A stretch of 64,000 nucleotides of DNA from assembly GCF_000178955.2 (NCBI RefSeq), contig NC_016631.1:5890001-5954000 (forward strand). Reading direction: 5' to 3'. Source of the DNA: Granulicella mallensis MP5ACTX8. Its GTDB lineage: Bacteria > Acidobacteriota > Terriglobia > Terriglobales > Acidobacteriaceae. A program made the translations under genes and the position numbers. This document shows positions 7,793 through 24,292 of the stretch, in pieces. Position 1 is the stretch's first letter; every line of letters begins with the position of its first letter. Below the pieces are notes generated by a model, which worked only from the letters and a program-made list of their open reading frames with translations, did no database searches and was not told the origin of the DNA.

Positions 7793-9460
7793 TCAGGGCT
7801 GGCGGTAGGAGCGCGTGAACTCGGGAAGATCGGCTCCGGAGAGGAAGTCCCGCAGGCTGGCTGTCAGTGCGGCACGGGCGGTGTCCGGGGCCAGTGCGGT
7901 GTCCGGCGTCGCGGTGCGCAACAGAACCGGGATCGGGCGTGTGGGACTCTGGCTCAGCAAATTGCGGGTGTCCGGGCGGCTGTAGACAAAGCCAAAGTGC
8001 TTGAGGCCGTTCGAATACTGCCCGCACGTTGTGCCGGTGCAAACTGTCGTCGCCTCAAGATACTGTGTCGCTCCATTATTGAAGAACAAGAGGCCGAAGC
8101 TCGTAACGCCCCTGGCCGTCGGCAAAAGAAGATCGCCATGCCAAAGCCAGTCTTCTCCGCGGGCCGAGTGGCAGAGCAACGTATCGTGCGCCCCCAGTAC
8201 CGGCGAAATGCCGACTGAAACCACCGCACTCTTTTCGGGAGCGACGCTGCCGTCCGGCGCATAGTCCGCCCAGTAGTAGACCAGCGGACCATTCAGCATG
8301 TACTCATTCCACTCGCGCTGCAGCTTGTAGTGGCCCACGTGCTGCGGGAACAGACCAAGCGCCTTCGGATCGCTGGCGATACGAGAGGTCTTCCAGTCCT
8401 GCACGATAGCTCGCGCATACGTGATGCTGCCCACCAGCACCAGCAACGCCAACGCGATCCAGCGCGGCAGGAACGAGCCTGGCGCCACACCGGGAGTGCT
8501 CTCCGGCATTGTGGCTAATGCCGGCACGCGTAAGTCATGGCCAGGGCTGAATCGGCGAATCAAGGTAAACAGCAGCGCGGTCGCGACGAAGAACAGGCAG
8601 GCGCCGATGAGGTAGTCGCCCATCTCTGCGCGGCTCTGCAGCCATTGGATATGCAGTGCAACGATGTAGTACAGCACCAGGACACACAGCCGAACGAGGT
8701 TGAAGACGTATCCCAGCAGCACGGCCCCAGCGACCACAAGAATGTGCACGCGCAGACGAAACCTGTAGAGATATCCCGCGATCAGCGCGATGAAGCCCAT
8801 CGTGACCGCTCCCCGAATGCCGTTGCAGCCCGGCGCGATAAACATGCCGAAGTCCGGAGTAAACATCAGCCGCAACTGGTCGCTGGTGAGCTGTTGCCCC
8901 AGGGCGTGAGCGAAGGCACGTGCGATCAGGGATGAAGCGTGCTGCAGCGGCAGATCGATATGCAGCGTAAAGAAGGTGGGAACCGGGTTGACGAACCCCA
9001 TCAGCACGAGGGGGAAGAGCGTGGCGCGAACAAGCCTCGGCCCTCCGAACAACAGCACGACGCCCGCCGCATAGGCAATGGCCACCAGCGAGTGGGGCGG
9101 GAGGAAGATCGTCCACGAGGGCGTGAGGATCAGCTCGAGAATGGCACGGTCGCGCAGATGGACCAGCGCAATCGTAGCGGCAAGAATCGCCAGTCCCCAC
9201 CAGCTTCCGCGCAGCTCCCAGCCAAGCGATCGCCAGACTCTCAGGATGAGCACAAAGCTCACCAGAGGGATGAGGCCACCGATGGATTTGAGCGGATCAT
9301 TCATCCAGAGCACCCAAAGAGCAAGCGCTGTCTGGAAGATCGCGAATACACCGGCGATGCTCAGCCCCCCCACCAGCATTACGGCTGTGGACCGTGTCAG
9401 CCTGAGCCCTGCCGGTCGCGCATCGGTCGGTGGCACAGCAGCCGTGGGAGAGGTAAACAT
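7793..9460 (-). CDS. Exosortase with fused C-terminal EpsI-like domain (XrtJ-like)
   Basis: A 555-aa multi-pass membrane protein. The exosortase signature is visible: a catalytic-type Cys in PGCNGIRG (Cys212), Arg in NLVRL (Arg257) and a His near 270 (VALH), set among about eight membrane segments. After a further membrane segment near residue 340, the C-terminal 200 residues form a soluble domain with QREWNEYML-type features of EpsI proteins. Exosortases cleave and re-anchor PEP-CTERM-type proteins during export, often with exopolysaccharide synthesis. Size and fusion fit the acidobacterial XrtJ group; this is from memory of the family and not from a search. No PEP-CTERM substrate or polysaccharide gene is adjacent. 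Confidence 0.82.
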   Translation of the reverse strand: MFTSPTAAVPPTDARPAGLRLTRSTAVMLVGGLSIAGVFAIFQTALALWVLWMNDPLKSIGGLIPLVSFVLILRVWRSLGWELRGSWWGLAILAATIALVHLRDRAILELILTPSWTIFLPPHSLVAIAYAAGVVLLFGGPRLVRATLFPLVLMGFVNPVPTFFTLHIDLPLQHASSLIARAFAHALGQQLTSDQLRLMFTPDFGMFIAPGCNGIRGAVTMGFIALIAGYLYRFRLRVHILVVAGAVLLGYVFNLVRLCVLVLYYIVALHIQWLQSRAEMGDYLIGACLFFVATALLFTLIRRFSPGHDLRVPALATMPESTPGVAPGSFLPRWIALALLVLVGSITYARAIVQDWKTSRIASDPKALGLFPQHVGHYKLQREWNEYMLNGPLVYYWADYAPDGSVAPEKSAVVSVGISPVLGAHDTLLCHSARGEDWLWHGDLLLPTARGVTSFGLLFFNNGATQYLEATTVCTGTTCGQYSNGLKHFGFVYSRPDTRNLLSQSPTRPIPVLLRTATPDTALAPDTARAALTASLRDFLSGADLPEFTRSYRQP

Positions 9461-9535
9461 GCTTCCGATTCTAACTAGGGAGTGTCATCAAAATTGCACG
9501 TGGGATGAAGTTGGACTGTGCAAGCTGTTTGCTAT

Positions 9536-9572
9536 GGCACGGTTTCATTATCGGCACGGTTGAAACCGTGCC
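9536..9572. other. Perfect hairpin, possible terminator
   Basis: A 12-bp stem (GGCACGGTTTCA paired with TGAAACCGTGCC) with a 13-base loop that itself repeats GGCACGG. It lies in the 220-base gap between the first island gene (stop at 9681, minus) and the start of the exosortase gene, and may end transcription of the island. No clear U-tract follows. Confidence 0.5.
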
Positions 9573-9680
9573 CTTCCGATGCGCGGCTCAACAAACTGTG
9601 TGCATAGCTCAGCTTCGCTCCAAGAATAGTTTGAGGACACGCCCTGAGCTTCAAAAGCTTTTCCATGAGACTCCTCCACG

Positions 9681-10343
9681 CTATTGCGCCGATTGTCGTG
9701 CCGACGCAGTCAGACTCGCGCAGGCCTGCTCGAAGTCTTGACGTGATCCTCGCCGGAGATCACCCAGCAGGTACGGCTCAAAGCCGTGGTAGTCGGCTGC
9801 GAGAACACCTTCATGAAGAGTTGCATCGAGATTGCCGAACTGCGATTGAGTGTCGTTGTAGAGGATGAGAGACATGCCAGCATTGGAGACGCGGTTTGTG
9901 GTGAAGGCGTAGCTGATTAGCTTGCCATCACGACCGCACATCGTAGCGGAGCCGCGCAGTGAGGCAGAAGCGATGTGAAATGGGTCCAACGAGGTACTGA
10001 CGAAGATAGCGCGAACGTTGTCAAAGTCATCCTGCTTCTGCTGACGAAGCTCGCGTATGGCTTCCTGACGATCTGATTCGGCGATGAACGGGCTGGGTGA
10101 AAGATCGGGCGGTGCGGGGCGACTGGGCGGTTTCAGGATGCCGACCCATTCGCCTGTCAGCGCCGTGTCGGGATGTAACTTGGGCGCGGCCCAGGAGTTG
10201 CGGTAGAGGCGCAGGCCATAAGGAACACCAAGAAAGAGGCTGCCCAAGATAAAAATGACTATAAAGAATCTGAGGAACTCAGCGGATACGATGATCCCCG
10301 GGCCCTTGGGAGTAACGGATGCGGAAGGCGGCGACGGCTCCAT
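9681..10343 (-). CDS. Membrane-anchored G-x-W-V-G family protein, island paralogue 1
   Basis: A 220-aa protein. The ATG at 10343 is chosen because AAAGGATAAGC precedes it; upstream in-frame codons lack a binding site. It has one membrane segment at about residues 24-44, then GEWVG at 64-68. A charged insertion rich in Gln/Arg (around 85-105) is not seen in the other paralogues. The end matches the family's closing pattern, LLGDLRRG...DFEQACASL. The predicted topology is a short cytoplasmic tail, one signal anchor and a periplasmic beta-rich domain. This is the most promoter-distal of eleven such genes. Function unknown; a periplasmic immunity or envelope-binding role is inferred only from the linkage to VgrG. 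Confidence 0.7.
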   Translation of the reverse strand: MEPSPPSASVTPKGPGIIVSAEFLRFFIVIFILGSLFLGVPYGLRLYRNSWAAPKLHPDTALTGEWVGILKPPSRPAPPDLSPSPFIAESDRQEAIRELRQQKQDDFDNVRAIFVSTSLDPFHIASASLRGSATMCGRDGKLISYAFTTNRVSNAGMSLILYNDTQSQFGNLDATLHEGVLAADYHGFEPYLLGDLRRGSRQDFEQACASLTASARQSAQ

Positions 10344-10411
10344 GCTTATCCTTTTCTCATCTGTATGGTGAAGATGTTGGCGCCTTTGGGTATACCCATA
10401 GAGATTCTGTT

Positions 10412-10666
10412 CTAGTCGCCTGCCGGCACGATCACGACCTCGCAACCTACCCTGATCAGATCGTCGGCAAACTCTCGCGCGGTGTCTGGATCAAAAGAGA
10501 ACGGTAAGTGATAAGGCAGCCCTGTAGAAAGAAAGTCGCGATACATGACATAATCCCCGCGCCCTTTGATGTAGTACCGTATCACTTCCAATAGTCGGCC
10601 CCAGACCATGGAGAACTCTTCTATATCTCCTTTGCCGGGACCAACAATAATAAGACGTTTGGACAT
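10412..10666 (-). CDS. Small hypothetical protein of the VgrG island
   Basis: An 84-aa soluble protein starting at ATG 10666, preceded by AAGGAG; the longer frame to 10702 has no such site. The start SKRLIIVGPG suggests a beta-strand and loop, and the end FADDLIRVGCEVVIVPAGD suggests a helix-strand unit, so a small alpha/beta fold is likely. It has no signal peptide or membrane segment, unlike the genes around it, so it would act in the cytoplasm. It lies between two island paralogues with short gaps and is probably cotranscribed. I do not recognise the family. Confidence 0.65.
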   Translation of the reverse strand: MSKRLIIVGPGKGDIEEFSMVWGRLLEVIRYYIKGRGDYVMYRDFLSTGLPYHLPFSFDPDTAREFADDLIRVGCEVVIVPAGD

Positions 10667-10774
10667 ATCGCTCCTTGGATGTAGTGAAGTTTGGACAGGC
10701 AAAAGATTTACCTATGCGTGGATCATGACGACGGGTTTTGGTGAGGCGGACGTTACTGGTTGCAAGGTAGGCTT

Positions 10775-11347
10775 TTACTTGCAAAGCTGGGCGAAGTCGG
10801 CGGCGTCTGCGCGATGAAGAATGCCGCGGAGTTCCGCATGAGCAAGCGATCCGCTGAAAAACAGCTTGCCATTTCGGGAGGAGATGTTGGCTGAATCGAT
10901 GCGAATGGGAAAGGCACTCGGCGGATGCTGGTACACGTCCAGATCAGCGATTCCGTTTTCCAACAGACCGTGATCGAACCTGGCCGTTGACCGAGTTCCC
11001 TGGTCTGAACACAAGGTCACCGTGCCATTGACTTGGTCCAGCGTAGTCAGCAGGCCACGGCTACTCTGTACCATGACGATCCAGTTCCCTGTTCCTTCAG
11101 CCGGCATGTCCCATGTTCCTGGTGAATCTTGCGACGAAATGGCCCGTCCGACCCAGGTGCCCACAATCAATGAGGAACGATCAGGGGAGTTGGTCACAGC
11201 GTGCATCATTTTGCTGTACACCAGCGGACCAGCAATGGCCAGGACGATAAAAAGACCGAAAAGAAACAGTCCCACAAGGCCACTTGAGGACTTTGAGTTT
11301 GACAGCCTGGTCTGCCGGGTGACTTGTGAATTCATATTGAAGGTCAT
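10775..11347 (-). CDS. Membrane-anchored G-x-W-V-G family protein, island paralogue 2
   Basis: A 190-aa protein with one membrane segment (about residues 24-44) and GTWVG at 63-67. It is a close relative of the gene at 16264: the two share TNSPDRSS before the motif, then WDMPAEGTG, TVTLCS and a C-terminal pattern ending FxxLCK. A central Cys in TLCS is common to this subgroup and to the genes at 9681 and 11375 (TMCG, RMCD). GGAG lies 10 bases before the ATG at 11347. Predicted inner-membrane anchor with a periplasmic beta-rich domain; role unknown. Confidence 0.72.
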   Translation of the reverse strand: MTFNMNSQVTRQTRLSNSKSSSGLVGLFLFGLFIVLAIAGPLVYSKMMHAVTNSPDRSSLIVGTWVGRAISSQDSPGTWDMPAEGTGNWIVMVQSSRGLLTTLDQVNGTVTLCSDQGTRSTARFDHGLLENGIADLDVYQHPPSAFPIRIDSANISSRNGKLFFSGSLAHAELRGILHRADAADFAQLCK

Positions 11348-11374
11348 ACGCTCACTTCTCCTCGCTCGATAGAC

Positions 11375-11938
11375 CTACTGCCGCAACCCCAGGCAAGCCT
11401 GCTTATAGGCCTGCAAACTATCCCGATGCAACTCTCCCTGCAGTCCAGGATCTGTGCCGTCATATTGCGAAGCAAGATGATCGCCGCGCAACGCACCAAA
11501 CAACTCCCCGCCGTCCGAAGTTTCCGCTGAGATAAGCGTAATGCCCAACGTGTCGTCACTTACGGTTCTGGTCTTCAGCAAAGCAAATGGCGTCTCACCC
11601 TGCTTATCGCACATGCGAACCGTACCAGTAAGTGTGGGTGAAGACCAACGCAAGAAGCTTACTGACGTATCGACATAAACGACGCGGCGGTCGGCCGAGC
11701 CTTCACCAGAAGACATGGTACCGACCCAGGCACCCGTTACCGGACGCAGAAGCTGGACACGGCTTATGTATAGATAGCCGGCGAGGACGATAAAAACGCC
11801 AGCGGCCATCAAAACCATAACTCCTACGCTCTTCAACAGGCTACCTGCGGTCACGTTGCGGTCTCCGTACTTGGCCACAAACTGCTTTTCCTCGGGCGTG
11901 CCGTGCTGTTCATGCCACTTTTTTTCTTCTGGGAGCAC
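11375..11938 (-). CDS. Membrane-anchored G-x-W-V-G family protein, island paralogue 3
   Basis: A 187-aa protein starting at GTG 11938, supported by a perfect AGGAGG 7 bases upstream. A hydrophilic, Glu/Lys-rich N-terminal tail of about 35 residues precedes the membrane segment (about 38-58), longer than in the other paralogues. GAWVG is at 69-73. Later come TGTVRMCD and the family end GLQGELHRDS...YKQACLGL. The gene stops 27 bases before the start of the next one (11347), which fits one operon. Function unknown; see the island finding. Confidence 0.7.
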   Translation of the reverse strand: MLPEEKKWHEQHGTPEEKQFVAKYGDRNVTAGSLLKSVGVMVLMAAGVFIVLAGYLYISRVQLLRPVTGAWVGTMSSGEGSADRRVVYVDTSVSFLRWSSPTLTGTVRMCDKQGETPFALLKTRTVSDDTLGITLISAETSDGGELFGALRGDHLASQYDGTDPGLQGELHRDSLQAYKQACLGLRQ

Positions 11939-11986
11939 GACTTATCCTCCTACTTCACGGGTGAATATCGGCGATGGGGGAGAGCA

Positions 11987-12595
11987 TCAGCTCGGAGTAG
12001 CACTGTAGTTCGGCTTCTGAATGCTTTTTACCAAAGAATTCAGAGTCCTCTTATCACCACGCTTCAGCGAGCCGCTGATCTTATAACTGGTTCTCTCGGG
12101 TAGCTCATAACTGCCGTGAAATAAAGATTTTCCAAATGTCAATACAAAATCGGGAAAGCTGTAGTTCCAGCTACCCGATAGGGTCCCATCCGGCGGAGCG
12201 GCAAGCAACTCTTTTGTGTTTCCACGTATCGGAAGCAGCCAATCATCGTTCAATCGTTCGATATCGAATGTGTGCCGTTGACCCGAAGCATCGATCAGTA
12301 CAGCCTTGGCGTCAGTGCGATCTAGAAATGAAAACCACACTGGCGAAAGAACGACTTGAATAACAGCATTTCCTTGTTGCTCGACATCTTCGTGCAACGA
12401 ACCGTCAGACACAATTCGGACAATGGAGACAACGCCCATCCAGTTACCGTTGAGGCTATCTGCCGCGCGTACGGAACGTATCCGCGGAATCAACACGGAC
12501 AACGCGAAAAAAACAATGATCCCAGCCACAAACAGCAGCTTTGATCCCATGCCACTTCCAACAGCGCGAAAACCCGCCAAAATTCTTTGCCACAT
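11987..12595 (-). CDS. Membrane-anchored G-x-W-M-G family protein, island paralogue 4
   Basis: A 202-aa protein, start ATG 12595 with GGAG upstream. The N-terminus (MWQRILAGFR, then AVGSGMGSKL), the membrane segment (about 20-36) and GNWMG at 50-54 are almost the same as in the gene at 14775. The first roughly 90 bases of the two genes are nearly identical in DNA, showing a recent copy or gene conversion. Shared later motifs are SPVWFSFLDRT, AVLIDA, HTFDI and SFPDFVL, ending KISGSLKRGD. The rest has diverged clearly, so the periplasmic domains may be selected to differ. Function unknown. Confidence 0.72.
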   Translation of the reverse strand: MWQRILAGFRAVGSGMGSKLLFVAGIIVFFALSVLIPRIRSVRAADSLNGNWMGVVSIVRIVSDGSLHEDVEQQGNAVIQVVLSPVWFSFLDRTDAKAVLIDASGQRHTFDIERLNDDWLLPIRGNTKELLAAPPDGTLSGSWNYSFPDFVLTFGKSLFHGSYELPERTSYKISGSLKRGDKRTLNSLVKSIQKPNYSATPS

Positions 12596-12745
12596 GATTT
12601 TCTCCAGTTCAATTTCACACGCAATGTCCGTTAGGGAAACTAACCTATCTCACGAGAAAACGTAAGGCTCTGTATGTGTACCAGGCCTTGTGGAGCAGAA
12701 TCCTCGCGGTAGTGCGTCAACGAGAAGAGACAGATCTACTGGATA

Positions 12746-13141
12746 CTAAGAAGGGTCGAGCGGGATACGCGACAGGAGGAGGATCCCTTTATCTTCAGGA
12801 CTTTCTCGAATGTAAAGATCTATGCTACACAACCATTGGTTTATCAGCTCTGCAGAACGAGCGCTTGCGAGAATCCTGCAGTCCAGCAAAGGAAACACAA
12901 AATCTGCGCGGCCAAAACCGGGGTCCGTAATCTCAGGCAGATACCGGTTGTTGGCGTTGAGGCGTTGGAAGCCCGGGTCCGATCCGTCATTCTGGTATCC
13001 GTTTTGATTTGTCAGTGTTTTGACGAACTTGGTGAAGACCCCATCTTCAGGGGCTTCTTTGTAATTGGGGTCTTCGGTGGAGTTCTCATCCGGACCTGCA
13101 GGCTCGGGAGCACCTGGTTTTTCGCTGGAGTTACCGCCCAT
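12746..13141 (-). CDS. Short member of the island's C-terminal-module family
   Basis: A 131-aa protein without a membrane segment; GGAAGAGGAC precedes its ATG. The first 35 residues are Pro/Glu/Asn-rich and probably disordered. The C-terminal 60 residues (FVFPLLD, then DLYIRESPEDKGILLLSR) match the C-terminal ends of the genes at 17035 and 17803, which are two to three times longer. It is therefore either a naturally minimal version of that module or a shortened copy. It sits between island paralogues 4 and 5. Function unknown. Confidence 0.65.
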   Translation of the reverse strand: MGGNSSEKPGAPEPAGPDENSTEDPNYKEAPEDGVFTKFVKTLTNQNGYQNDGSDPGFQRLNANNRYLPEITDPGFGRADFVFPLLDCRILASARSAELINQWLCSIDLYIRESPEDKGILLLSRIPLDPS

Positions 13142-13166
13142 GATTGTCCTCTTCCTGTGATGTCAG

Positions 13167-13757
13167 TTAGGGTTTCGCGCCGGCCGCTGCGTTCATAGCC
13201 TGTACAAGTGAGTTGTAGTCGTCGTCGGTGCCTTTCACGAGCACACCTTTCATGTCGTACCCGGTAAACAGGTCGCGTTCGATGGAGAGACTTTCGCCAG
13301 CTTTCCACTGCCCGTGAAAGCTGCCCGAAACCAGGTCTTTCGGATCATTGGGATGATAACCATCGAGCCAAAGGCTGGTGCGAAACTCGTGGTTTGGATC
13401 CTTTGCAGAGATGGAGAGTGCTTTTAGGTGAAAGGTCTGGGGCGGCTGACCAGCTATAGAGATTTCGCCGGTTCCGCCGTAGTTGTCGAGAAAGTAGTCC
13501 TGGGTGCCGAGTCTAAAGCGGATGACAGCCGGCTTCAAGAGAGCGCGGTGCCATGGGTCCTGGACACCGTAGATATCGATGTGACCAACCCATTCGCCCT
13601 TGATAGAGTTGGAAGAAGTCCCGGGCATGAAGCCGCGCACATGTTCGAGCATGGCCCTGGGATTGAGCAGCGTCCAGATCAGGAAAAACACTGTCAGGAA
13701 AGTCAGCACCAGCATACCCGGCCTTTTACTCCTGTTGATTGGTCGGAACTGATCCAT
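13167..13757 (-). CDS. Membrane-anchored G-x-W-V-G family protein, island paralogue 5
   Basis: A 196-aa protein with one membrane segment (about residues 14-31) and GEWVG at 54-58, then a beta-rich domain with TGEISIAG and the family end GVLVKGTDDDYNSLVQAMN. GGAAGAG precedes the ATG at 13757. The stop is 25 bases before the start of the 12746 gene, so the two are likely cotranscribed. It is one of the more divergent members and lacks the central Cys of paralogues 1-3. Function unknown. Confidence 0.7.
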   Translation of the reverse strand: MDQFRPINRSKRPGMLVLTFLTVFFLIWTLLNPRAMLEHVRGFMPGTSSNSIKGEWVGHIDIYGVQDPWHRALLKPAVIRFRLGTQDYFLDNYGGTGEISIAGQPPQTFHLKALSISAKDPNHEFRTSLWLDGYHPNDPKDLVSGSFHGQWKAGESLSIERDLFTGYDMKGVLVKGTDDDYNSLVQAMNAAAGAKP

Positions 13758-13902
13758 CTACTCTTCCTTGCCGAAAATATATCAGCTCCGTCAGGCGGCA
13801 AAACAAGACTGACGTTCGTCGTTTTCCCTGCGTTTGTGTGCCCGATCGTACTGAAGATTAATGATTGTCGCGATGCTGCCCGGTCACCGGTTTACGAAAA
13901 CG

Positions 13903-14454
13903 TCAACGCGCTAACATAAATGTCACCGGTAGCGAATGCACCGTTATGTGTTTTTCAGGGGTGCTTACCTGTACGAAAGCAGAATAAATCACACTATAAA
14001 CATGCATGCCTGTCGCAAATTGATATTGCGTGGTGATGTCCTGTTGCGCTTGCAGGCTCTGCCCTGGTGCCAGCCGTATCAAATCTTTCTCTTCAGATGC
14101 CCTTCGTTTAACCATCGGCCCCAGAAAATCAACCTTCTGTTCCGCCTGCGATATTCCCAGAAGGCTACCTTCCATCAAATTGCTCCGGAAGACCTGCCAC
14201 GGTTCGAATAAATAAGTGTCCGTCTCTGAAGTATTCTTCCAGGTTACATGCACGATGACATGTCCACCGCTTATATCCACATTCATTGCAATCTGCAGAT
14301 TTACATTCGATCCTTTTTGTATTGGTGTAACGCCCGCTGGTGCCGGCGAAACGTGCACGCCAGGTTCCTTCCAGCAGCCAAAACCAGCCGCCAGCAACAG
14401 GCTAAGGCCGAGCGTCAGCAACATCCTATTTGATACCTTCCACGAAATATTCAT
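13903..14454 (-). CDS. Exported protein of unknown function in the VgrG island
   Basis: About 183 aa from ATG 14454 (ATG 14466 is an alternative; neither has a strong ribosome site). The N-terminus is a signal peptide with a Leu-rich core ending GFGCWK. The Cys suggests a lipoprotein, but residues -3 to -1 (GFG) are not a good lipobox, so this is uncertain. The mature part is beta-rich, with a pattern (VIVHVTWKNTSETDTYLFEPW) like proteins that bind or present conserved strands. It lies directly downstream of the vgrG fragment, and that rearrangement may have replaced its original upstream region. I do not recognise a family. Confidence 0.6.
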   Translation of the reverse strand: MNISWKVSNRMLLTLGLSLLLAAGFGCWKEPGVHVSPAPAGVTPIQKGSNVNLQIAMNVDISGGHVIVHVTWKNTSETDTYLFEPWQVFRSNLMEGSLLGISQAEQKVDFLGPMVKRRASEEKDLIRLAPGQSLQAQQDITTQYQFATGMHVYSVIYSAFVQVSTPEKHITVHSLPVTFMLAR

Positions 14455-14484
14455 AACTGTCCGCATGATTCAGTGCTGCTGCGG

Positions 14485-14635
14485 GAAAACGCCAGTCCGA
14501 CTCGCCGTACTGGACGTAGTTCAAGGCCTTGCTGCTGGAGGCCTGAACGGAGATGCTGAGGTTGTGCCGCGACCCAATCGCGGCCGGCGATGGAGGAGAG
14601 CGTCTGCTCGGAGTACTGCTTGTGCGCGGTCACGT
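14485..14635 (-). pseudogene. vgrG fragment
   Basis: This 151-base stretch is nearly the same DNA as 22243-22395 inside the intact vgrG. It encodes the region around TAHKQYYSEQTLSSIAG and NYVQYGESDWSF, with a 3-base deletion and a 1-base insertion that break the frame. On both sides the similarity stops abruptly. It is debris of a second vgrG copy or of a recombination event. Confidence 0.85.
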
Positions 14636-14644
14636 ACGCAAATC

Positions 14645-14755
14645 TCACGATGCGGCGAAGAACTCTAGAATCCGATTGGGCTCCGTTGAGGTCAAAGAGG
14701 TCCAGACATAAACCTCTATAGAATGGCGATTCTGATGCGGAGCCTCATCGGACAT
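14645..14755 (-). CDS. 36-aa reading frame with strong ribosome site, joined to vgrG debris
   Basis: The ATG at 14755 has AAAAAGGAG 6 bases upstream, one of the best sites in the island. The frame (MSDEAPHQNRHSIEVYVWTS...) stops at 14645, just before the vgrG fragment begins in another frame. It looks like the intact 5' end of a lost gene cut by the recombination that brought in the vgrG piece. It could still be translated as a short peptide. Nothing in it identifies a family. Confidence 0.4.
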   Translation of the reverse strand: MSDEAPHQNRHSIEVYVWTSLTSTEPNRILEFFAAS

Positions 14756-14774
14756 AGTGATCTCCTTTTTGCTG

Positions 14775-15353
14775 TCAGCGTGCGCTACTCAGGTTTTGAA
14801 CGAGAGACTGAAGCGTAGCTTCATCACCACGCTTCAGCGAGCCGCTAATGCGATACGTCGTACCATCAGAGAATTCGTTGTTTCCAAAACTATCGAATTT
14901 CAGTACAAAGTCTGGAAAGCTGCGATTCCATTGCCCAATTATCGTCTCGTCTGTTCCACCAGCCAGCAACTGCTTAGAGCTCCAGCGTTTTCTAAACGCC
15001 CAACCGTCAGCTAAGTCAGAGATACCAAAAGTATGCCGCACGCCGTCAGCGTCAATGAGCACAGCAGTGGACTCGGTACGATCAAGAAATGAAAACCAAA
15101 CCGGTGACAATTTCACTCGCATGACGGCAGTCCCTTGCGATTCCGTGTCATTCAGGTTGTCCTTCGGAATACTCTTCGTAATCGAGACTGTGCCCATCCA
15201 GTCGCCATACATACTGTCAGAGGCTCTTACTGCACGTATCCGCGGGACTAGAATATATAACGCAAAGAAAACAATGATCCCAGCCACAAACAGCAGCTTT
15301 GATCCCATGCCACTTCCAACAGCGCGAAAACCCGCCGAGATTCTTTGCCACAT
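14775..15353 (-). CDS. Membrane-anchored G-x-W-M-G family protein, island paralogue 6
   Basis: 192 aa from ATG 15353 (GGAGCTC upstream, and the same start context as its sister at 11987); the frame extends to 15377. Membrane segment at about 20-36, GDWMG at 50-54, then SPVWFSFLDRT, HTFGI, SFPDFVL and ISGSLKRGDEATLQSLV. The 5' DNA is nearly identical to the sister gene, the rest much less so. Predicted inner-membrane anchor with a periplasmic domain. Function unknown. Confidence 0.72.
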   Translation of the reverse strand: MWQRISAGFRAVGSGMGSKLLFVAGIIVFFALYILVPRIRAVRASDSMYGDWMGTVSITKSIPKDNLNDTESQGTAVMRVKLSPVWFSFLDRTESTAVLIDADGVRHTFGISDLADGWAFRKRWSSKQLLAGGTDETIIGQWNRSFPDFVLKFDSFGNNEFSDGTTYRISGSLKRGDEATLQSLVQNLSSAR

Positions 15354-15531
15354 GATGAGCTCCAGTCCAGCTTTCACACGCGATGCTCGTTACGGAGATT
15401 AGCCTATCCAATACAGATGGCACCCGGTCTGATCGTGGCTTTTGGTCGAGGGATGGGGGGAAATCTCGCACGCAGCTTCAAGTCGCATGCGTCGGGCGGA
15501 AGGGGCGGTTGGAGTATGGTCAGCATGCGGG

Positions 15532-16146
15532 TTAATGCTTCTCCTGCTGTTGCGGCTTCAGGTTTCGTTCAAACTCACGCTCCTGCTGCATCATCTGTTC
15601 GGGACCGGAGTTGTTGAAATACGGATTTCCAGTAGGGGAGTCCGAGCTATCGGACGGCTGCGCGGGAGTGCGGCCGTGGAGACCGTCGTTGATGGCCTCC
15701 ACGACGGTCATCTGGCTCGGCTTGTACATGGAAATCCTGCCGAGGGGAAGGGTGTTTGCGCCGTTCCTGAGATGGAGTGCGACGCGCGGTCCCATGCGAT
15801 CGTAATCAATGAAAGCGCGGTCGAGGTCACCAGTGGCGAGCGCGTACGTTGTTTCAAAGCCGGTCAGAAAGCGGTTGGTGGAAGTAACGGTTCCTGCATC
15901 CCAGTTGATGTCGAGCGTGTTCGTCCAGCCAAGAGCGAAGAGCAATACGAGAACGAGGCCAAACGAACCGATGAGCAGGATGCCGCGGGTGGAGGCCGCC
16001 CGCGGCGGTAGAAGCCTGTAGACGGTGAAGGAAGCTACAACCTCAAAGGCCAGCGTGAGATAGGTACCGGACCAGAAAAACATCTGCGGGCTGGACACCC
16101 GCAGATGATGGCTGGTGTTTTGTACGATCTGAAGATCTGGTCCCAT
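15532..16146 (-). CDS. Two-helix membrane protein of unknown function, island
   Basis: A 204-aa protein; the ATG at 16146 has a strong AAGGAG 5 bases upstream. It has two membrane segments (about 23-45 and 55-75), then a soluble domain of about 70 residues (DINWDAGTVTSTNRF...) and a Pro/Gln/Glu-rich tail. The two-helix hairpin plus small beta domain recalls bacterial PH-like or photosystem-assembly-like membrane proteins, but no signature is convincing. It lacks the G-x-W-V-G motif and is not one of the eleven paralogues. It is in line with the other island genes and probably cotranscribed. Confidence 0.62.
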   Translation of the reverse strand: MGPDLQIVQNTSHHLRVSSPQMFFWSGTYLTLAFEVVASFTVYRLLPPRAASTRGILLIGSFGLVLVLLFALGWTNTLDINWDAGTVTSTNRFLTGFETTYALATGDLDRAFIDYDRMGPRVALHLRNGANTLPLGRISMYKPSQMTVVEAINDGLHGRTPAQPSDSSDSPTGNPYFNNSGPEQMMQQEREFERNLKPQQQEKH

Positions 16147-16263
16147 GCTGCTCCTTGACCGTGCTGTAGATCGCCGAAATGTTGGAGTTAGGTCCGACGG
16201 TGCCGAGGTTCTGGGTCATGGCGATCTCGTGGGCGCGTCCATGTCTCCTGCGGGGGAAACGAA

Positions 16264-16821
16264 TTACTTGCAGAGCCGCTCAAAGTCAGCGGGCTGGCCG
16301 GGCTCCAGGATGCCATGCATGTTTTGTTCGGCGACGACTGCGCTAAAAAACATCTTGCCATCGCGCGGAAACAGAAACGCAAGATCGATCCGGGTTGCGC
16401 GCGTGCTGTCCGTTTGCTCGACATTCAGGTCCGCCTCCCCACCGTTCAGGAAATCCATGTTAAAAGTGCCGACGGTTCGCGCTCCTGTGTTCGAGCACAA
16501 GGTAACGGTACTCTGGGTGGCGTCCATGGAGGTAAACAGGCGATGTTTGCTCTGGATCATCACCGCCCAGTCCCCTGTCCCTTCCGCCGGCATGTCCCAG
16601 CGGCCAGAGGAGTGATCCGACAGCACGGCACGGCCCACCCAAGTACCTGTGATGCGCGAGGAACGATCCGGCGAGTTGGTCGCCGGATTGGCAAGTTTGC
16701 TGTACAGCAAAGGCCCTAGCGTTACGACGAGAATAAACAGCCCAATCATAATCAGCATGGTGAGAGCCCCTCGTGTGAGCGGCGCGCGGGGCCTGGTGTT
16801 TCGGGTGACCTGTTGATCCAT
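16264..16821 (-). CDS. Membrane-anchored G-x-W-V-G family protein, island paralogue 7
   Basis: A 185-aa protein: short basic N-terminus (QQVTRNTR), membrane segment about 19-40, then TNSPDRSS, GTWVG at 59-63, WDMPAEGTG, TVTLCS and an end in FERLCK. It pairs with the gene at 10775, which has the same blocks in the same order. AAGGAAAA lies upstream of the ATG. Below its stop (16147-16263) only very short overlapping frames are present. Function unknown. Confidence 0.72.
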   Translation of the reverse strand: MDQQVTRNTRPRAPLTRGALTMLIMIGLFILVVTLGPLLYSKLANPATNSPDRSSRITGTWVGRAVLSDHSSGRWDMPAEGTGDWAVMIQSKHRLFTSMDATQSTVTLCSNTGARTVGTFNMDFLNGGEADLNVEQTDSTRATRIDLAFLFPRDGKMFFSAVVAEQNMHGILEPGQPADFERLCK

Positions 16822-17034
16822 AGCGATACTATTTTCCTTGTGTTGGGCTGCTTAGCCTATATCGAGAGAGAAGAGTTTCGACCGGATATAGACGTGTCCG
16901 GTAGACACATGGGGGCTACGGCATCCATCCGACCTTCATGTTCTTTGGTGAGCGTCTGCGGAGCCACAAATGCAGGAGCTGAGTACGCACTCTGTTCCAA
17001 TTTCTCGGTCATCGAGAAGACTTGGGGGTGGGTG

Positions 17035-17799
17035 TTACGCCTTCCGTTGCGATTTTTGCCTGACCTGCTCTACCAGAGACTCCAGCGGCAACCTTGACAA
17101 GATAAGGATCCCCCGATCTTCCGCGCTTTCACGAATGTATACATCGACGCCACAAAGGCACAGATCAAGCCGCTCAGCGAAACCCGCACTGCTGATAGTG
17201 TTCCGGTCCACAAGCGGCAGATAGAATCTCTCTTTTTTAAAGCGATCATCTTCAATCGTAGGCAGAAAGAGCTCTTTCGACCGCTTCAGAAGCGCCTCAC
17301 TATCCAGCTTGGAGAAGGTCTGAATTTCTACTCCCAATCCACGCATCGTCCTTGCGGCTTCTATACGCTTCCCTTCATCTCCCGTCAGGCGGAAGAGTTT
17401 GTAATAAGGCTTGGCCGGCTCATCGCCGCGGAAGCTGGCGGCAACTGCATCCATCATGATGGCTTTCGACCAGCTTTTGGGAGGCTCCCGGTCCGGCCAT
17501 ACTCCAAGCCCTATCTGCGGTTTCCAGGAAGCTCCATTTTCGCTCACCAGACTGGACCCGGTTGCGGGTGAAAGCTTCCACATTTGCAGCAGAACCTCTT
17601 GCTGAAGCCCGTAATCATCTGTCAGCACGTCTGTTAGCAGGCCGAGAAATTTGCGGACGATACCGTACTGCGGCGGAGTCATGGGAAACTGCTCTACCGG
17701 CAACAGAACCGCCTGCCAGGGAACGGGAGCCTCCACGCCCTGAAGCTCCAATTTAATCTCTTGCTGTTCTCCCGGCCGTCCATCCGCTTTATCTTTCAC
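17035..17799 (-). CDS. Island protein with shared C-terminal module (254 aa)
   Basis: The start is GTG 17799: AGGAG lies 8 bases upstream, inside the last codons of the preceding gene, whose stop is only 3 bases from this start. The two are therefore translationally coupled. There is no signal peptide or membrane segment. The N-terminal half is mixed alpha/beta. The C-terminal part (residues about 195-245: FYLPLVD, then VDVYIRESAEDRGILILSR) matches the ends of the genes at 17803 and 12746. The gene sits directly downstream of the candidate effector at 18854. An adaptor/chaperone or cytoplasmic immunity role is a guess from position only. Confidence 0.7.
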   Translation of the reverse strand: MKDKADGRPGEQQEIKLELQGVEAPVPWQAVLLPVEQFPMTPPQYGIVRKFLGLLTDVLTDDYGLQQEVLLQMWKLSPATGSSLVSENGASWKPQIGLGVWPDREPPKSWSKAIMMDAVAASFRGDEPAKPYYKLFRLTGDEGKRIEAARTMRGLGVEIQTFSKLDSEALLKRSKELFLPTIEDDRFKKERFYLPLVDRNTISSAGFAERLDLCLCGVDVYIRESAEDRGILILSRLPLESLVEQVRQKSQRKA

Positions 17800-17802
17800 C
17801 GC

Positions 17803-18705
17803 TTATCTCCTGACGGGCTCTTCTGCTGGCGGCATGGTTGCCACTACATCCAGCATGACTTGTTCATACTCCGGTTTCTGAAACAACAACACCACTCCCT
17901 TGTCTTTTCTACTTTCGCCCACGTAGACGTCGAAGAGCTCAAAGTACAAAGACCGTTCTTCTGGAGAAGCCCCGAAGACAGTTGCACTATCCAGCAAGGG
18001 AAGAACGAAATCCATCCTGCGGAGTTCGGCGCGATGGGCAAGGTCGCTGCCGAAAAGGGTCTTGCTGCGATCAAGAAATGCGTCGAGCCGGGCGGCGGTG
18101 CCGCTAACGATCTGTTCCACGTCGAAGCGCTGAAAGGCCGGATGGGCGGCGCGTAACGCGGGCGAGATGGCCATGTTGGGAGGGCGTACCTTTGGCTTTG
18201 GATCTGGCGGTAAGAAGAGCGCGATGAAACCGCCATAGCCGGCGAAGAGCTCTCGTTGAGGTATGGGTTGTTTGTTGGCAAACCAGAGGAGGCTTTGACC
18301 TATTCGCTCGCCATGCTTCTCATTCTCTTCCGGTTGGGTCGCCGGTGCGCCGTCGGGCGGAAACAAGGTTGTGCCGCCGCTCATGGAGCGGCCAAGGCCA
18401 GGGTATATGACACAGCGTTCCTTGTATTGATGATAGGAGTGATGCAACGGCCCGCGTATCTCGTTCTGCTGCATGAAGTGCTCGCAGCGCAGCTTGCCGG
18501 ACTGGGTAAGGGCAGCGGAAAAGCGCTCCAGGAAGAGTAATAGCCACTGTCTCTCCGCATACCGCAAGGGAAAGCCGGAGACCGGCAGCCAGAAGAGAGA
18601 GGCGTCAGCAATCGCGGATTCCGGGGCCGGTATCCACGGCGCAAACGTAGGCTGCGGCGAAAGCCGCGGCCGCTTGTTTACGGTCTCCAACGTGTTTTCA
18701 TTCAT
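17803..18705 (-). CDS. Island protein with shared C-terminal module (300 aa)
   Basis: 300 aa from ATG 18705 (GGCGGAAGC upstream); a TTG at 18732 in frame is less likely. Features seen: Trp/Phe-rich N-terminal region (WIPAPE, LFWLPVSGFPLRYAERQW), a middle part with several Pro-rich loops, and the C-terminal module MDFVLPLLD ... FDVYVGESRKDKGVVLLF. No membrane segment. It is the first gene after the candidate effector on the same strand and is coupled to the 17035 gene by overlapping start signals. I do not recognise the N-terminal domain. Confidence 0.7.
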   Translation of the reverse strand: MNENTLETVNKRPRLSPQPTFAPWIPAPESAIADASLFWLPVSGFPLRYAERQWLLLFLERFSAALTQSGKLRCEHFMQQNEIRGPLHHSYHQYKERCVIYPGLGRSMSGGTTLFPPDGAPATQPEENEKHGERIGQSLLWFANKQPIPQRELFAGYGGFIALFLPPDPKPKVRPPNMAISPALRAAHPAFQRFDVEQIVSGTAARLDAFLDRSKTLFGSDLAHRAELRRMDFVLPLLDSATVFGASPEERSLYFELFDVYVGESRKDKGVVLLFQKPEYEQVMLDVVATMPPAEEPVRR

Positions 18706-18765
18706 AGCTTCCGCCTGTTTGTCACCCTTCAAGGGAAGCCCTGAACAAGTGTCTTGCTTTACAGG

Positions 18766-18785
18766 GGCGGGATTTCATTCCCGCC
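18766..18785. other. Hairpin between effector-like gene and downstream pair
   Basis: A 7-bp stem (GGCGGGA / TCCCGCC) with a 6-base loop, in the 148-base gap upstream of the 18705 start. It could attenuate transcription between the effector-like gene and the pair below. A similar GGGCGGGATTTT-type hairpin occurs at about 30739-30762. Confidence 0.4.
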
Positions 18786-18853
18786 ATAAATCTCCCAAAA
18801 TCAGTGCAGCTTTAGCTGCGGAGGAAATGCTCGCACTCTTGTTCACGCCTTCC

Positions 18854-19861
18854 TTACATTGCAGGTACAAGGGTGCCCGCACCCGCACCTGCACCGGTAA
18901 CGGTCTCACTCAACCAGGTTCCTGCTGACGTAACTGCCTCTCCTATTGCCGGCAGCGCCGCCATATCTTCCGGGCCGACGAAGACTGCAGCAACAGCAAG
19001 TCCCACGGCTGCGACGCCGATAACCCCTGACTCAATCGGATGGGCCTTGATAGCAGACCAGGCTTTTCCGGCCTTATCTTCCACCCAGTTTTTGGCTCCC
19101 ACCGCTAATCCGGCGGTCGCGGTCGCTGCCTCTGTGGTCCACATCCAGGCCTGCGCTGCGGTCTCCGGGTTCTCAAGCGCTTCCGTCGCCGCTTCATCTT
19201 CGAGTGCCTCTTTGATGCCTGAGACGAGCTCCTCCGCTTTGACATGCAGCTTGTCAAAGCTGATGCCGGTAAGGCTCAGATCATTGTCGACGATGCCGAT
19301 CTCGGTCTTCATGGCATAGAGGCTATTGCCGAAGTAACAATTTTCATTGATGGTCGCGATGAAGCTGCTCTCCTCGTGCTTCCACTCGAAGCTTTCGGGT
19401 GCATTGGTGTCATGCTTATCAATGAAGTTGTCTACGCTTTGACCGATCACGTAGCACTCGCGGTTACCTTGGACAACCCACTCTTCGTCACCCAATGTGG
19501 CTTGGTTGCGTTTCTTGTTATATAGGAACTCCGCATCGCCTTCGATATCGTGAATCTGGTCGCCACCCACACGCAAAGTATCATCCGCTGAAACGAGCAC
19601 GTGACGATTGCCGATGATTTGGTGATTGTAGTCACCTCGGATGAGGTGCTGACCGTGGCCTGGACGTACGTTCGGAATGGCTGAGGTAAGAGTGAGTGCA
19701 CGACTCTCGATATTTTTCAATCTTAGTTGTGCATTGTCCTTGTTAGCTCCATTCGGAGCCTGGATTGTCTGAATCACCTTATTAAAGGTTCCTTTTAATC
19801 CAAGCTTTGTCGGAGATTCATCTTCAACAATATTGTGGTCTTCTGCTTCTGCACCCATCAT
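18854..19861 (-). CDS. Candidate secreted effector: VgrG-tip-like repeat region plus hydrophobic Gly-rich tail
   Basis: A 335-aa protein; AAGGAG is 4 bases before tandem ATG codons at 19861. Residues about 70-150 carry degenerate G-[DN]-x-x-x-x-[VI]-G repeats (RGDYNHQIIGNRHV, RVGGDQIHDIEGDAEF), like the triple-stranded beta-helix of VgrG/gp5 tips. Residues about 150-230 are acidic and helical. The last 120 residues alternate Ala/Gly-rich hydrophobic stretches (VIGVAAVGLAVAAVFVG; GAGAGAGTL) separated by charged helices, as in pore-forming or membrane-inserting tails. There is no signal peptide, which fits export by T6SS. It lies four genes below vgrG on the same strand. An effector role is inferred; a structural tip extension is the main alternative. 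Confidence 0.6.
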   Translation of the reverse strand: MMGAEAEDHNIVEDESPTKLGLKGTFNKVIQTIQAPNGANKDNAQLRLKNIESRALTLTSAIPNVRPGHGQHLIRGDYNHQIIGNRHVLVSADDTLRVGGDQIHDIEGDAEFLYNKKRNQATLGDEEWVVQGNRECYVIGQSVDNFIDKHDTNAPESFEWKHEESSFIATINENCYFGNSLYAMKTEIGIVDNDLSLTGISFDKLHVKAEELVSGIKEALEDEAATEALENPETAAQAWMWTTEAATATAGLAVGAKNWVEDKAGKAWSAIKAHPIESGVIGVAAVGLAVAAVFVGPEDMAALPAIGEAVTSAGTWLSETVTGAGAGAGTLVPAM

Positions 19862-19894
19862 TCGCTCCTTAGTATGAAATGCTAGTTCATTACT

Positions 19895-20434
19895 TTAGGC
19901 TTGCGCACAAGCGTTGATACTCCGCCTCTGTACCGATATGCAATGTTCCACGATAGGAGTAGTCGCGAATTCCAAAGCGGAAATGCTAAGAGCATTCGCT
20001 TGGAAGGTGCCGCTAAGATGATGAAAGCCGAAGAGGTCCTGGCTATGTATTTCACTAAAGGAATCGCCACTAAGATTCCCCTTCGGGTTGATCATGAAAT
20101 TGACGTCCTTGAAGAATCGCAAGGTGGTGTCACCGGCCAGAAAGAGCTTGCCCTTTCCCTGATATCCTTTGAGAAATGGGTCGTTCAGGTGAAGATTAAA
20201 TTCAAGCACCGCCGTCTTGTTCGGCAACTTTTCTCCGCTCGGCTTGTAGGCTTCGACAATGCCCACCCAGTTGCCTTCCGCCGTGTCCCCGCTTTGAGGA
20301 TTGAACTGGCCGGCGTATGTGCCCAACCACTTATGATTCAACAGCAGAAACATCCCTGCCATGAGCGACAGGATGAAGACCGCCTTCAGCAGGAACGCAC
20401 CCACCGACATCCCTATCGTTTTTCCTGGAGGCAT
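19895..20434 (-). CDS. Membrane-anchored G-x-W-V-G family protein, island paralogue 8 (C-terminal frameshift)
   Basis: Read as it stands, 179 aa, start ATG 20434 with AGGAAAGGG upstream. It pairs with the gene at 20515 from the first residue: MSxGxFLLxA, MFLLLNHxWxGTYA, then GNWVG at 54-58 and INPKGNLSG. After SALEF the frame leaves the family. Switching frame there gives DYSYRGTLHIG, then TEAEYQRLCASLK and a stop at 19890, which matches the sister's DYKYRGVLHLGNDADYQALCNSL. A single lost base near 19945-19955 explains this. It is either a recent inactivation of the C-terminus or a sequencing error. Confidence 0.7.
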   Translation of the reverse strand: MPPGKTIGMSVGAFLLKAVFILSLMAGMFLLLNHKWLGTYAGQFNPQSGDTAEGNWVGIVEAYKPSGEKLPNKTAVLEFNLHLNDPFLKGYQGKGKLFLAGDTTLRFFKDVNFMINPKGNLSGDSFSEIHSQDLFGFHHLSGTFQANALSISALEFATTPIVEHCISVQRRSINACAQA

Positions 20435-20514
20435 ACTGTGCGCCCTTTCCTGACTATGCCTTTTTTTCGGTTCATCGGTGACTCATCCTCAGCGATATTG
20501 TGCCCTCCGTTTCT

Positions 20515-21090
20515 TCACCGTGACGCGCTGCTGTCTTTAGTTCCATTCAGGCTGTTGCATAAAGCTTGATAGTCTGCGTCGTTGCCCAGATGCAAGACAC
20601 CGCGGTACTTGTAGTCATGCAAGGCCAATTGTGAAACTACAAATTTGTTTTTCTGGAAGGTCCCCTTAATGTCTACGTCGCTATCGTGATCGTCTGGGGA
20701 CATTGTTGTACCGGAAACGCTTCCACTCAGAACGTCCTGACTATTGATCATGAAGTGGACGTCGTTGTAGAACCGCGGTTCGGCATTTCCTCTTGTAAAC
20801 AGCTTGCCTGTCCCCTGATATCGCTTGACGAACGGGTCATCCAGATGCAACTTGAACTGGATTGCCGTTGCCCTGTCCAGGATCTTGTCACCGTTCGGCT
20901 CGTATGCCTCGACAATACCGATCCAACTGCCGTCCGCCGTGGCGCCATTCGGCGTACGAAATTGCGCGGCATACGTGCCAAACCATCTATGATTTAGCAG
21001 TAAAAACATGGTTGCCATCAGGCAGACTACGAAAGCAGCTCGCAGCAGGAATGGTCCTAGCGACATGCCAACCTTCCTCACTAAAGGCAT
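20515..21090 (-). CDS. Membrane-anchored G-x-W-I-G family protein, island paralogue 9
   Basis: 191 aa; GGGAG precedes the ATG at 21090, and the gene begins 40 bases after the vgrG stop, so it is probably cotranscribed with vgrG. Membrane segment about 13-33, GSWIG at 54-58, then IVEAYEPNGDK and the family ending YRGVLHLGNDADYQALC. It is the intact sister of the frameshifted gene just below it. Being the first gene after vgrG makes it the best candidate for a partner of VgrG-delivered activity. Confidence 0.75.
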   Translation of the reverse strand: MPLVRKVGMSLGPFLLRAAFVVCLMATMFLLLNHRWFGTYAAQFRTPNGATADGSWIGIVEAYEPNGDKILDRATAIQFKLHLDDPFVKRYQGTGKLFTRGNAEPRFYNDVHFMINSQDVLSGSVSGTTMSPDDHDSDVDIKGTFQKNKFVVSQLALHDYKYRGVLHLGNDADYQALCNSLNGTKDSSASR

Positions 21091-21130
21091 GATTTACTCC
21101 CAGCCCTAAAGATGCCTGCTTTTCGGTCCA

Positions 21131-22696
21131 TCATTCCCCTCCAATATCTTTGGAGTAGAACTGAGACTCAATGTGAACGCGACCCTTTGGTGCGTGCAGG
21201 ATAATGTCACCGGTTAGAGACTCGAGCGTGATGTTAGTTCGGCCCGTCTGGTCCGAGCATTCTGTCATCTTGAGCCTATTATTGTTTGGGGTAGCCAGAA
21301 CGATCGTCTCGACGCCTGCCTTATCGGAGAGTTGCAAGCGATTTCCACTCTTCGTCATGAGGTGCTTGACATCATTCGTCGCGATGTCCCCGCCTCGCAG
21401 ATCGTTGCGATACTGGTTGTGCACGCCATTCCAAAGCGAACCAATGATGACGGGGCGCTCCGGGTCGCCGTCTTCAAACGCCACGGCCACTTCGTCGCCG
21501 ACTTCCGGCATAAACATGAAACCGCGATCCGGACCCGCGTGAGGGCTGGTAGCTCGTGCCCAGTGAGTAGCGCCATCCTCCTGCCAGAAGAACTGCACCT
21601 GAACTCTGCCCATTTTCTTGGGGTCGTTGTGACCCGTAACACGCGCCGAGACGATGCCGTTCCACGTCCGCGCCTCTGGGGGGTTTGGGTTGCGGTAGTT
21701 CTTCCATGGGGTGCAGACGAAGCTATTCAGGTAGCCCTGCGGAGTCCATTGATGGACCACACGCACCAGCCCATAGGTGCCCTTGGCGTCGAGCATTCCT
21801 TCTACCGTCAGCGTGTTGCCGGCCATCAGAGACTGGTTGCGCGAAGAGCCGGTGCCCGTTACCGCACTGCCCATGCTGCGTTCGCTCTCGGACTGCAGCT
21901 GGTCTGAGTAGTTGTCGAGCGTCATCGCACGGGCGCGCTGCGGCTCGAAGCCTGGCGGCAACTGCGCCGAGGCCGCCTGTACCGCGCTCGTAAGCTGCTC
22001 GGCGGCCGGATAGAACTGCGGCGGCTTCGACAGCTTCTCAAACGTGTTCGACTGCATGGCATGGTGATCGTAGTGCGAGCCCGAGAAGCTGGGATTGACC
22101 CGACGGCCGCGCAGACGGAAGCCGACCAGATCGCCTTCACCCCGCCACTGAACAGTGCTGCCCGTCTGGAAGCTGTTGAAGACTTCCACTCCCGTTTGGC
22201 TCGGACGCATCCATGCGTCGTGGTCGTCGACGAGGCGGTTTAGAAAACTCCAGTCCGACTCGCCGTACTGGACGTAGTTCAACGCCTTGCTGTCGGAGGC
22301 CTGAACCGCGATGCTGAGGTTGTGCCGCGATCCAATCGTGCCGGCGATGGAGGAGAGCGTCTGCTCGGAGTAGTACTGCTTATGAGCGGTCACGTCCAGG
22401 CCGAAGCTGTCGCTCACGGCGATTAACGTAGCCGTGTAACTGCCCCAAACCTCATAGTCCAACTCCACGTCATGGACGGAGCCGGAGAAATGAATCTGCT
22501 CCACTCCCTGGCTATCGGTCGTCTTGACCTCGACCGGCTTGCCCAGCAGATCTTCTACCGGAATGCGCTGGTCTTCGGTATTGCGACAGACAATGGTGCA
22601 CCACCAGTGCTGGTTCAGTTCCTGAACGACTTCAACGGAAGCCAGACGAGCATCCCCGAGCATCCCATCGCCAATCTGTATCTGCGGAAGCGCCAT
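21131..22696 (-). CDS. vgrG: Type VI secretion tip protein VgrG
   Basis: 521 aa. The N-terminal gp27-like part has the conserved blocks DVTAHKQYYSEQTLSSIAG (about residue 100-118) and ESDWSFLNRLVDDHDAWMRPS. The gp5-like OB domain spans about 345-424 (WNGIVSARV, GRVQVQFFW, GDEVAVAFEDGDPERPVIIGS). The last 97 residues are a shortened gp5 C-terminal region (TKSGNRLQLSDKAG, TGDIILHAPKG) with no extra toxin domain. VgrG caps the Hcp tube and carries effectors. Length is at the low end for the family. No other T6SS core gene is in the window, so this is an orphan vgrG. GAGGAC precedes the ATG at 22696. Confidence 0.93.
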   Translation of the reverse strand: MALPQIQIGDGMLGDARLASVEVVQELNQHWWCTIVCRNTEDQRIPVEDLLGKPVEVKTTDSQGVEQIHFSGSVHDVELDYEVWGSYTATLIAVSDSFGLDVTAHKQYYSEQTLSSIAGTIGSRHNLSIAVQASDSKALNYVQYGESDWSFLNRLVDDHDAWMRPSQTGVEVFNSFQTGSTVQWRGEGDLVGFRLRGRRVNPSFSGSHYDHHAMQSNTFEKLSKPPQFYPAAEQLTSAVQAASAQLPPGFEPQRARAMTLDNYSDQLQSESERSMGSAVTGTGSSRNQSLMAGNTLTVEGMLDAKGTYGLVRVVHQWTPQGYLNSFVCTPWKNYRNPNPPEARTWNGIVSARVTGHNDPKKMGRVQVQFFWQEDGATHWARATSPHAGPDRGFMFMPEVGDEVAVAFEDGDPERPVIIGSLWNGVHNQYRNDLRGGDIATNDVKHLMTKSGNRLQLSDKAGVETIVLATPNNNRLKMTECSDQTGRTNITLESLTGDIILHAPKGRVHIESQFYSKDIGGE

Positions 22697-22872
22697 CCAT
22701 GTCCTCTAACTGCTCTGCAAGGGTAAGACCTGATAGCCAATCAGCCACGGTTGTTTAGCTTAGCTTAAAAAGATGTCGAGCCGTGAGCAAAGGATGCTTA
22801 GGTGTTCCCTTACTGGGCAGGCGTTCGCCGGGGGCGTATGCGTCGGGATCGGACCTGAGTCCCTTTACGGAT

Positions 22873-24218: not shown

Positions 24219-24292
24219 CAGCCGCTCTCTCTCGCCATCCTGCCTGCCATCATACGCAACGGCTGCGGGCTGCGCCCCGCGACCTACAAGGC

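Follow-up and report, generated by a model that had tools for sequence, protein, structure and literature searches.

A vgrG fragment in a type VI secretion island of Granulicella mallensis MP5ACTX8 as the probable stump of a displaced VgrG-effector module

Here we describe a short vgrG scrap in the genome of Granulicella mallensis MP5ACTX8 that, in our judgement, is probably a stump left by an older VgrG-effector module after its displacement in a type VI secretion island. The window that we analyzed, a stretch of 64,000 nucleotides, holds an intact resident vgrG and an array of presumed orphan immunity genes, with further pieces of vgrG lying among them. The process behind this arrangement is well supported as the sequential displacement already known from Vibrio cholerae, so that the island is a new instance of a known process, and what is novel about it is that its borders are unusually legible. 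It offers a readable record of the replacement of type VI secretion system (T6SS) modules, in which several borders keep the tail of a former vgrG and two of these tails have a close allele still intact in a sister species.

The scrap occupies 151 nucleotides at 14485-14635 (on the minus strand, as are the 36-codon head, the other vgrG pieces, the presumed orphan immunity genes and the module genes located below) and corresponds to approximately codons 101-151 of the VgrG body, interrupted by two small frame changes, as judged by blastn and by reading the frames. The first-pass annotation had claimed that 151 bases here repeat part of an intact vgrG about 7.8 kb away, and this is borne out: the scrap and the 153 nucleotides at 22243-22395 are identical in 140 of 154 columns, with 4 gap columns (E 3e-56, blastn), and lie 7,758 nucleotides apart from start to start. 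The gene in question is the resident vgrG (21131-22696; 521 aa; PF04717 and PF05954). The same annotation described the copy as out of frame, which is correct for about the first third of the scrap, where the reading is off the frame of the 36-codon head that precedes it; a second small shift puts the remainder back into the head's frame, and this part reads on through a tail of the M35-peptidase type until it reaches a stop codon at 14428-14426. The scrap therefore extends further on its low side than had been noted, since the homology runs on into 14485-14429.

The tail and its stop (14426-14485) are joined to the scrap and overlap the start of the following gene, 13903-14466. A matching arrangement is found in L059, a locus from a lichen-metagenome Acidobacteriaceae, whose VgrG of 719 residues carries an M35 metallopeptidase domain at its C-terminus (PF14521, residues 584-716, E 6e-26). 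Positions 14485-14429 match the last 19 residues of that protein with 74% identity (E 6e-5, tblastn), and at the DNA level 45 nucleotides at 14470-14426 match with 84% identity (E 4e-9, blastn against the whole window); this short match reaches into the start of 13903-14466, a gene to which part of its conservation may be due, and a second copy of the homologous gene in L059 keeps the same stretch with no vgrG in front of it. L059 has both traits of an evolved VgrG of the M35 type, a body and PF14521, whereas the window holds a piece of the body and the last residues of the tail only. Behind the L059 VgrG lie two homologues of 13903-14466 (43% and 54% identity), one of 13167-13757 (55%), and then spike-like, 299-aa and 251-aa genes. 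MP5ACTX8 shows the same order: scrap, tail, 13903-14466 (187 aa, presumed to be an orphan immunity gene left from the collapsed M35 module, with a start that looks, by eye, like a signal peptide), 13167-13757 (a GxWxG protein, presumed to be the second immunity gene of that module and matching L059 13311-13883) and a 131-aa remnant (12746-13141). The N-terminal part of this remnant resembles the spike-like gene (37% over 97 columns) and its C-terminal part the L059 251-aa gene (51% over 74 columns), and the two matched ranges overlap. An intact VgrG-M35 with a gene of the 13903-14466 type behind it was found in L059 only; across 249 genomes of the order, 13903-14466 had no further match apart from a weak one (26%, E 2e-4).

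These comparisons show a piece of the body joined in one frame to a VgrG-M35-like tail, followed by genes in the order seen in L059. Because the sequence continues into a tail of the M35-peptidase type, the scrap probably was not copied from the resident vgrG; it is most likely the stump of another vgrG. The earlier suggestion that vgrG sequence is duplicated and lost inside the island accordingly survives as repeated gain and loss, and fails insofar as it takes the scrap for a copy of the resident gene. Since the L059-type tail is accompanied by the same order of following genes, we read the locus as a collapsed, displaced vgrG-effector module with surviving presumed immunity genes: the L059-type module seems to be present here in collapsed form, with those genes intact.

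On its other side, the scrap is preceded by a frame of 36 codons plus a stop (14645-14755), which ends 9 nucleotides short of it and has an AGGAG a few bases before its ATG. The first-pass annotation was right to report a 36-codon frame with an excellent ribosome site directly before the scrap, and wrong to call it simply cut off, or beheaded: in G. mallensis X5P3 the same ATG opens a frame of 96 codons that runs straight into the vgrG scrap of that genome. The start region of the head is common to X5P3 and, for about 55 nucleotides, to Granulicella sp. S156, which has just the first part of the head, and the left joint between head and scrap is common to X5P3 and MP5ACTX8. In X5P3 the scrap extends a few nucleotides further, and three other frames lie between it and a gene shared by both genomes (9681-10445). 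Since the right joints and the genes that follow them differ, at least one event on the right side postdates the split of MP5ACTX8 and X5P3. Two candidate origins for this region found little or no support. The head might have been the start of the spike-like gene that follows a related immunity-type gene in S156, but the DNA match is weak (shuffled sequences scored at least as high in 22 of 500 trials with the S156 head and in 181 of 500 with the MP5ACTX8 head); searched against profiles of seven island families, the 36-codon head had no match below about E 0.1 among the matches listed. An origin in a mobile element was rejected, as 14400-14800 had no match at E 1e-5 in phage and plasmid collections.

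The pattern of identity between MP5ACTX8 and X5P3 shifts sharply near 14675. Immediately ahead of the stump lies 14775-15377, a presumed orphan immunity gene of the GxWxG type that is 98% identical in X5P3 and 90% in S156. More precisely, the upstream gene matches X5P3 at 98.5% (573/582) and the head at 99.1% (113/114); because these are more alike than the neighbouring 4.3 kb (92%), a recent exchange probably ended near 14675. The two scraps themselves agree at only 85% (133 of 156 columns), that of MP5ACTX8 having a shorter left part and the two small frame changes. They share two changes relative to both vgrGs, one of which is also the S156 base, against 9 and 11 private changes, four of the nine lying at a misaligned edge; with so few changes in common, the scraps would have diverged about as long ago from one another as from vgrG.

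The stump could also have arisen in two steps, with an ancestral vgrG scrap lying behind 14775-15377 and an M35 module arriving later and losing its own vgrG body at the joint. This is a variant of the displaced-module reading, with which its odds overlap, and we consider it possible, if somewhat short of an even chance. It would account for the presence in X5P3 of a body scrap with neither the M35 tail nor the genes behind it, for right joints that lie several nucleotides apart and for the sharp change of identity near 14675; what speaks for a single step instead is that body and tail share one frame, which would happen by chance one time in three, and that the joint is simple.

Three vgrG scraps other than 14485-14635 lie in the island, and two of them are 3′ tails that sit directly before a presumed orphan immunity gene. 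The tail at 12641-12699 is of the type found in Granulicella sp. S156 (59 nucleotides, 88%, E 1e-16 by blastn against the whole window); together with a spacer and the GxWxG gene 11987-12595 it is collinear with S156 over 694 nucleotides at 93%, a stretch that in S156 belongs to an intact vgrG and the first gene behind it. The tail at 16852-16904 is of the G. mallensis X5P3 type (53 nucleotides, 89%, E 5e-15, blastn); tail, spacer and gene start match X5P3 at 91% over 102 nucleotides, and the GxWxG gene that follows (16264-16821) is 50% identical to the gene directly behind the X5P3 vgrG. Both tails thus represent alleles that are intact in a sister species, where they precede an orthologue (93%, S156) or a homologue (50%, X5P3) of the gene found here. 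The remaining piece is a second scrap of the body (11969-12005; 37 nucleotides, 89%, E 2e-8) from the same region of vgrG, and it overlaps the end of 11987-12595. When vgrG tails from 17 loci, some of them alike, were searched against all 64 kb at E <= 1e-3, they matched only at 12.6, 14.4 and 16.9 kb and in the resident vgrG, and the reversed tails gave no match in the window at the same threshold. The vgrG tails, the body scraps and the 131-aa remnant are the remnants of old effectors that one looks for in a displacement array, and the scraps, with their allele matches, support the earlier proposal that 14485-14635 marks a recombination junction, in the sense that recombination or deletion junctions occur in this island.

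It is improbable that the scrap is a local duplication, a fragment of the resident vgrG that was copied inside the genome and ended up here by chance. Among five vgrGs compared with the scrap, the resident gene is indeed the closest (141 of 156 columns), and another body scrap comes from the same stretch of vgrG. Yet the left joint is shared with X5P3, the resident vgrG has no tail like the one into which the scrap runs on, and the other two tails are foreign alleles.

Two of the array genes are likewise traceable to positions behind vgrG. Both 11987-12595 (93%, S156) and a further presumed orphan immunity gene of the GxWxG type, 10775-11347 (90%, X5P3), have orthologues directly behind a vgrG in a relative. 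Twelve aligned GxWxG proteins have in common a hydrophobic stretch at the N-terminus and an invariant motif, G-x-W-x-G, and an AlphaFold2 model of the family is weak (mean pLDDT 59.8). No Pfam family scored above cut-off for five GxWxG-type or related genes and 9681-10445, no NCBIfam name for four immunity-type genes and no PADLOC name for two; the immunity role of the GxWxG and 13903-14466 proteins is presumed. Behind the resident vgrG lies its own module (17035-21090), with two GxWxG genes, a spike-like gene and genes of 309 and 254 aa. The last three of these, the set at 17035-19861, had no Pfam or NCBIfam match above cut-off. Genes of the 303 and 254 types follow vgrG in 14 of the 17 loci (some of which come from the same genome), the exceptions being G000p4077, L058, which is a short contig end, and G208; this conserved set is possibly an adaptor or effector set. 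Elsewhere in the MP5ACTX8 genome, the TssK family has four matches, two of them over the full profile. No RNA family reached its gathering score in 9000-26000. Upstream of the resident vgrG there is a tandem pair of GxWxG genes (22873-23490 and 23601-24218), found likewise in X5P3, with a dN/dS of 0.13 each against the X5P3 genes.

Simple Nei-Gojobori counts place the presumed-immunity-type genes of the island at a dN/dS of 0.13-0.24 in eight comparisons with relatives. The values are 0.23 against S156 and 0.18 against X5P3 for 14775-15353, 0.24 for 11987-12595 against the S156 gene directly behind vgrG, 0.16 for 10775-11347 against the X5P3 gene directly behind vgrG, and 0.18 (X5P3) and 0.20 (S156) for 9681-10445. 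For reference, codons 1-400 of vgrG give 0.04 and 0.07, the glycosidase 24293-25462 gives 0.04 and the exosortase that borders the island 0.14, so that the presumed immunity genes are no lower than the exosortase and lie above vgrG. Such ratios show, as far as codon counts can, that the array genes are kept, and say nothing of their role.

In a comparison with vgrG over 62 codons, the X5P3 scrap has 11 non-synonymous changed codons (one a stop, and two past the end of the blastn homology) and 9 synonymous ones, whereas the intact vgrGs of MP5ACTX8 and X5P3 differ over the same codons by 10 synonymous changes and no non-synonymous change. With its frame changes in MP5ACTX8, and a stop and near-equal counts in X5P3, the locus has vgrG homology without coding constraint, as a vgrG pseudogene should. 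It is very improbable that the fused frame is a working small gene, such as a decoy or regulator of VgrG: it has a good ribosome site and is open for 96 codons in X5P3, but it is broken in MP5ACTX8, S156 has only the first part of its head, and the X5P3 codons have changed about as often non-synonymously as synonymously. An assembly artefact, the outcome that the first-pass annotation thought would undo its reading, is hardly credible, given that the MP5ACTX8 genome is a single contig of 6,237,577 bases: the right joint is known from MP5ACTX8 only, but mis-assembly of the left joint is very unlikely because the same joint is present in X5P3.

The displaced-module reading implies the following course of events. 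A new module, consisting of a vgrG 3′ part, one or more immunity genes, a spike-like gene and two further genes, would enter by recombination anchored in the conserved body of vgrG. The old vgrG would be pushed downstream, and its middle, including the peptidase, would be lost by deletion, while the presumed immunity genes would be retained, presumably for the protection that they still give against neighbours armed with the old weapon. Repeated rounds would then build an array in which vgrG scraps mark the borders of former modules. G. mallensis X5P3 and Granulicella sp. S156 carry the same island, and a comparison with X5P3 shows a feature of such an array: the resident vgrG is 90-99% identical in all 11 of the 100-nucleotide bins up to nucleotide 1100 and 46-55% in the last two, and the cargo behind it differs, so that between relatives a conserved 5′ part is followed by a variable 3′ part and variable cargo. 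The scraps might themselves serve as recombination anchors, offering short vgrG homology where modules land, and the island would then swap blocks like a cassette array free of integrase; we think this unlikely, although the gene content of MP5ACTX8 and X5P3 does differ just to the right of the scrap, up to the shared 9681-10445, in line with such a role.

In V. cholerae, modules are described as entering via the conserved part of vgrG, with the old effector lost and the old immunity gene kept downstream; homology-facilitated illegitimate recombination was proposed, and a displaced effector 3′ end is described (PMC5361080). The Granulicella island resembles that system in its displaced 3′ ends and in a variable VgrG C-terminus tied to the type of module. 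It differs in phylum and gene families, in modules that add a spike-like gene and two further conserved genes, and, as far as the available part of that report goes, in that several borders bear vgrG scraps, two of them traceable to alleles intact in sister species. In bee gut bacteria, variation in VgrG length has been ascribed either to decay or to fragments displaced through illegitimate recombination (PMC8125069); there too, arrays of orphaned 3′ ends accompany immunity genes, though those ends are of rhs genes, and the VgrG fragments are not matched to donor alleles in the portion of the report drawn on here, unlike the two Granulicella tails. In agrobacteria, the breakpoint lies within vgrG, the C-terminal part is exchanged with the downstream genes, and orphan immunity genes occur (PMC8546570); the sections of that paper used here contain no description of vgrG scraps at the borders, such as the Granulicella island has. 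A related pattern is reported from Ralstonia (PMC11481896). The M35-type module recalls the Pseudomonas aeruginosa pair VgrG2b-PA0261 (Tpe-Tpi), in which a VgrG with a C-terminal metallopeptidase acts in the periplasm and an adjacent gene encodes an exported or membrane-anchored immunity protein (PMC6899460). The L059 VgrG likewise has a C-terminal metallopeptidase domain and an adjoining presumed immunity gene; its domain is Pfam M35 (PF14521), and the likeness drawn here is one of description. The island supplies candidate linked pairs, namely the GxWxG proteins with the module cargo and, putatively, VgrG-M35 with gene 13903-14466. A literature search for T6SS in Granulicella or Granulicella mallensis found no paper.

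Beyond the island, a survey of 28 genomes of the genus found 9 with any match to this VgrG. Four short pieces were vgrG scraps, all of them in this island of three genomes, two being in the S156 island; the other partial matches sit in open frames of 196 to 735 aa. The S156 island holds at least three further vgrG 3′ pieces. A tblastn survey (E <= 1e-3) of 18 stretches, 17 with a full vgrG, was positive in the three homologous islands and found one scrap in G208 and one in G070 contig 2, the stretch without a full vgrG, while 13 of the 17 loci with a full vgrG had no scrap at this threshold, at which short scraps may be missed, since in the window 16852-16904 and 11969-12005 were found by blastn alone. 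The scraps in G208 (L104) and G070 contig 2 (L103) are single vgrG 3′ tails in two other genera of the family, and the pattern is therefore wider than this island.

Several features of the surroundings were observed along the way. The island borders on an exosortase gene (7793-9460; PF09721, E 5e-37) that is conserved in X5P3. Positions 15532-16146 encode a 204-aa protein with a weak, sub-cut-off match to NrsF and two relatives in the S156 array. A dispersed inverted-repeat element has at least four copies in the first 40 kb, the part searched (240-463, 25561-25799, 31732-31915 and 34927-35145), with arms of 45-114 nucleotides that are 76-94% complementary, and a transketolase-like gene (32734-35178, so named by eye) has the start of its longest frame within one of these copies.
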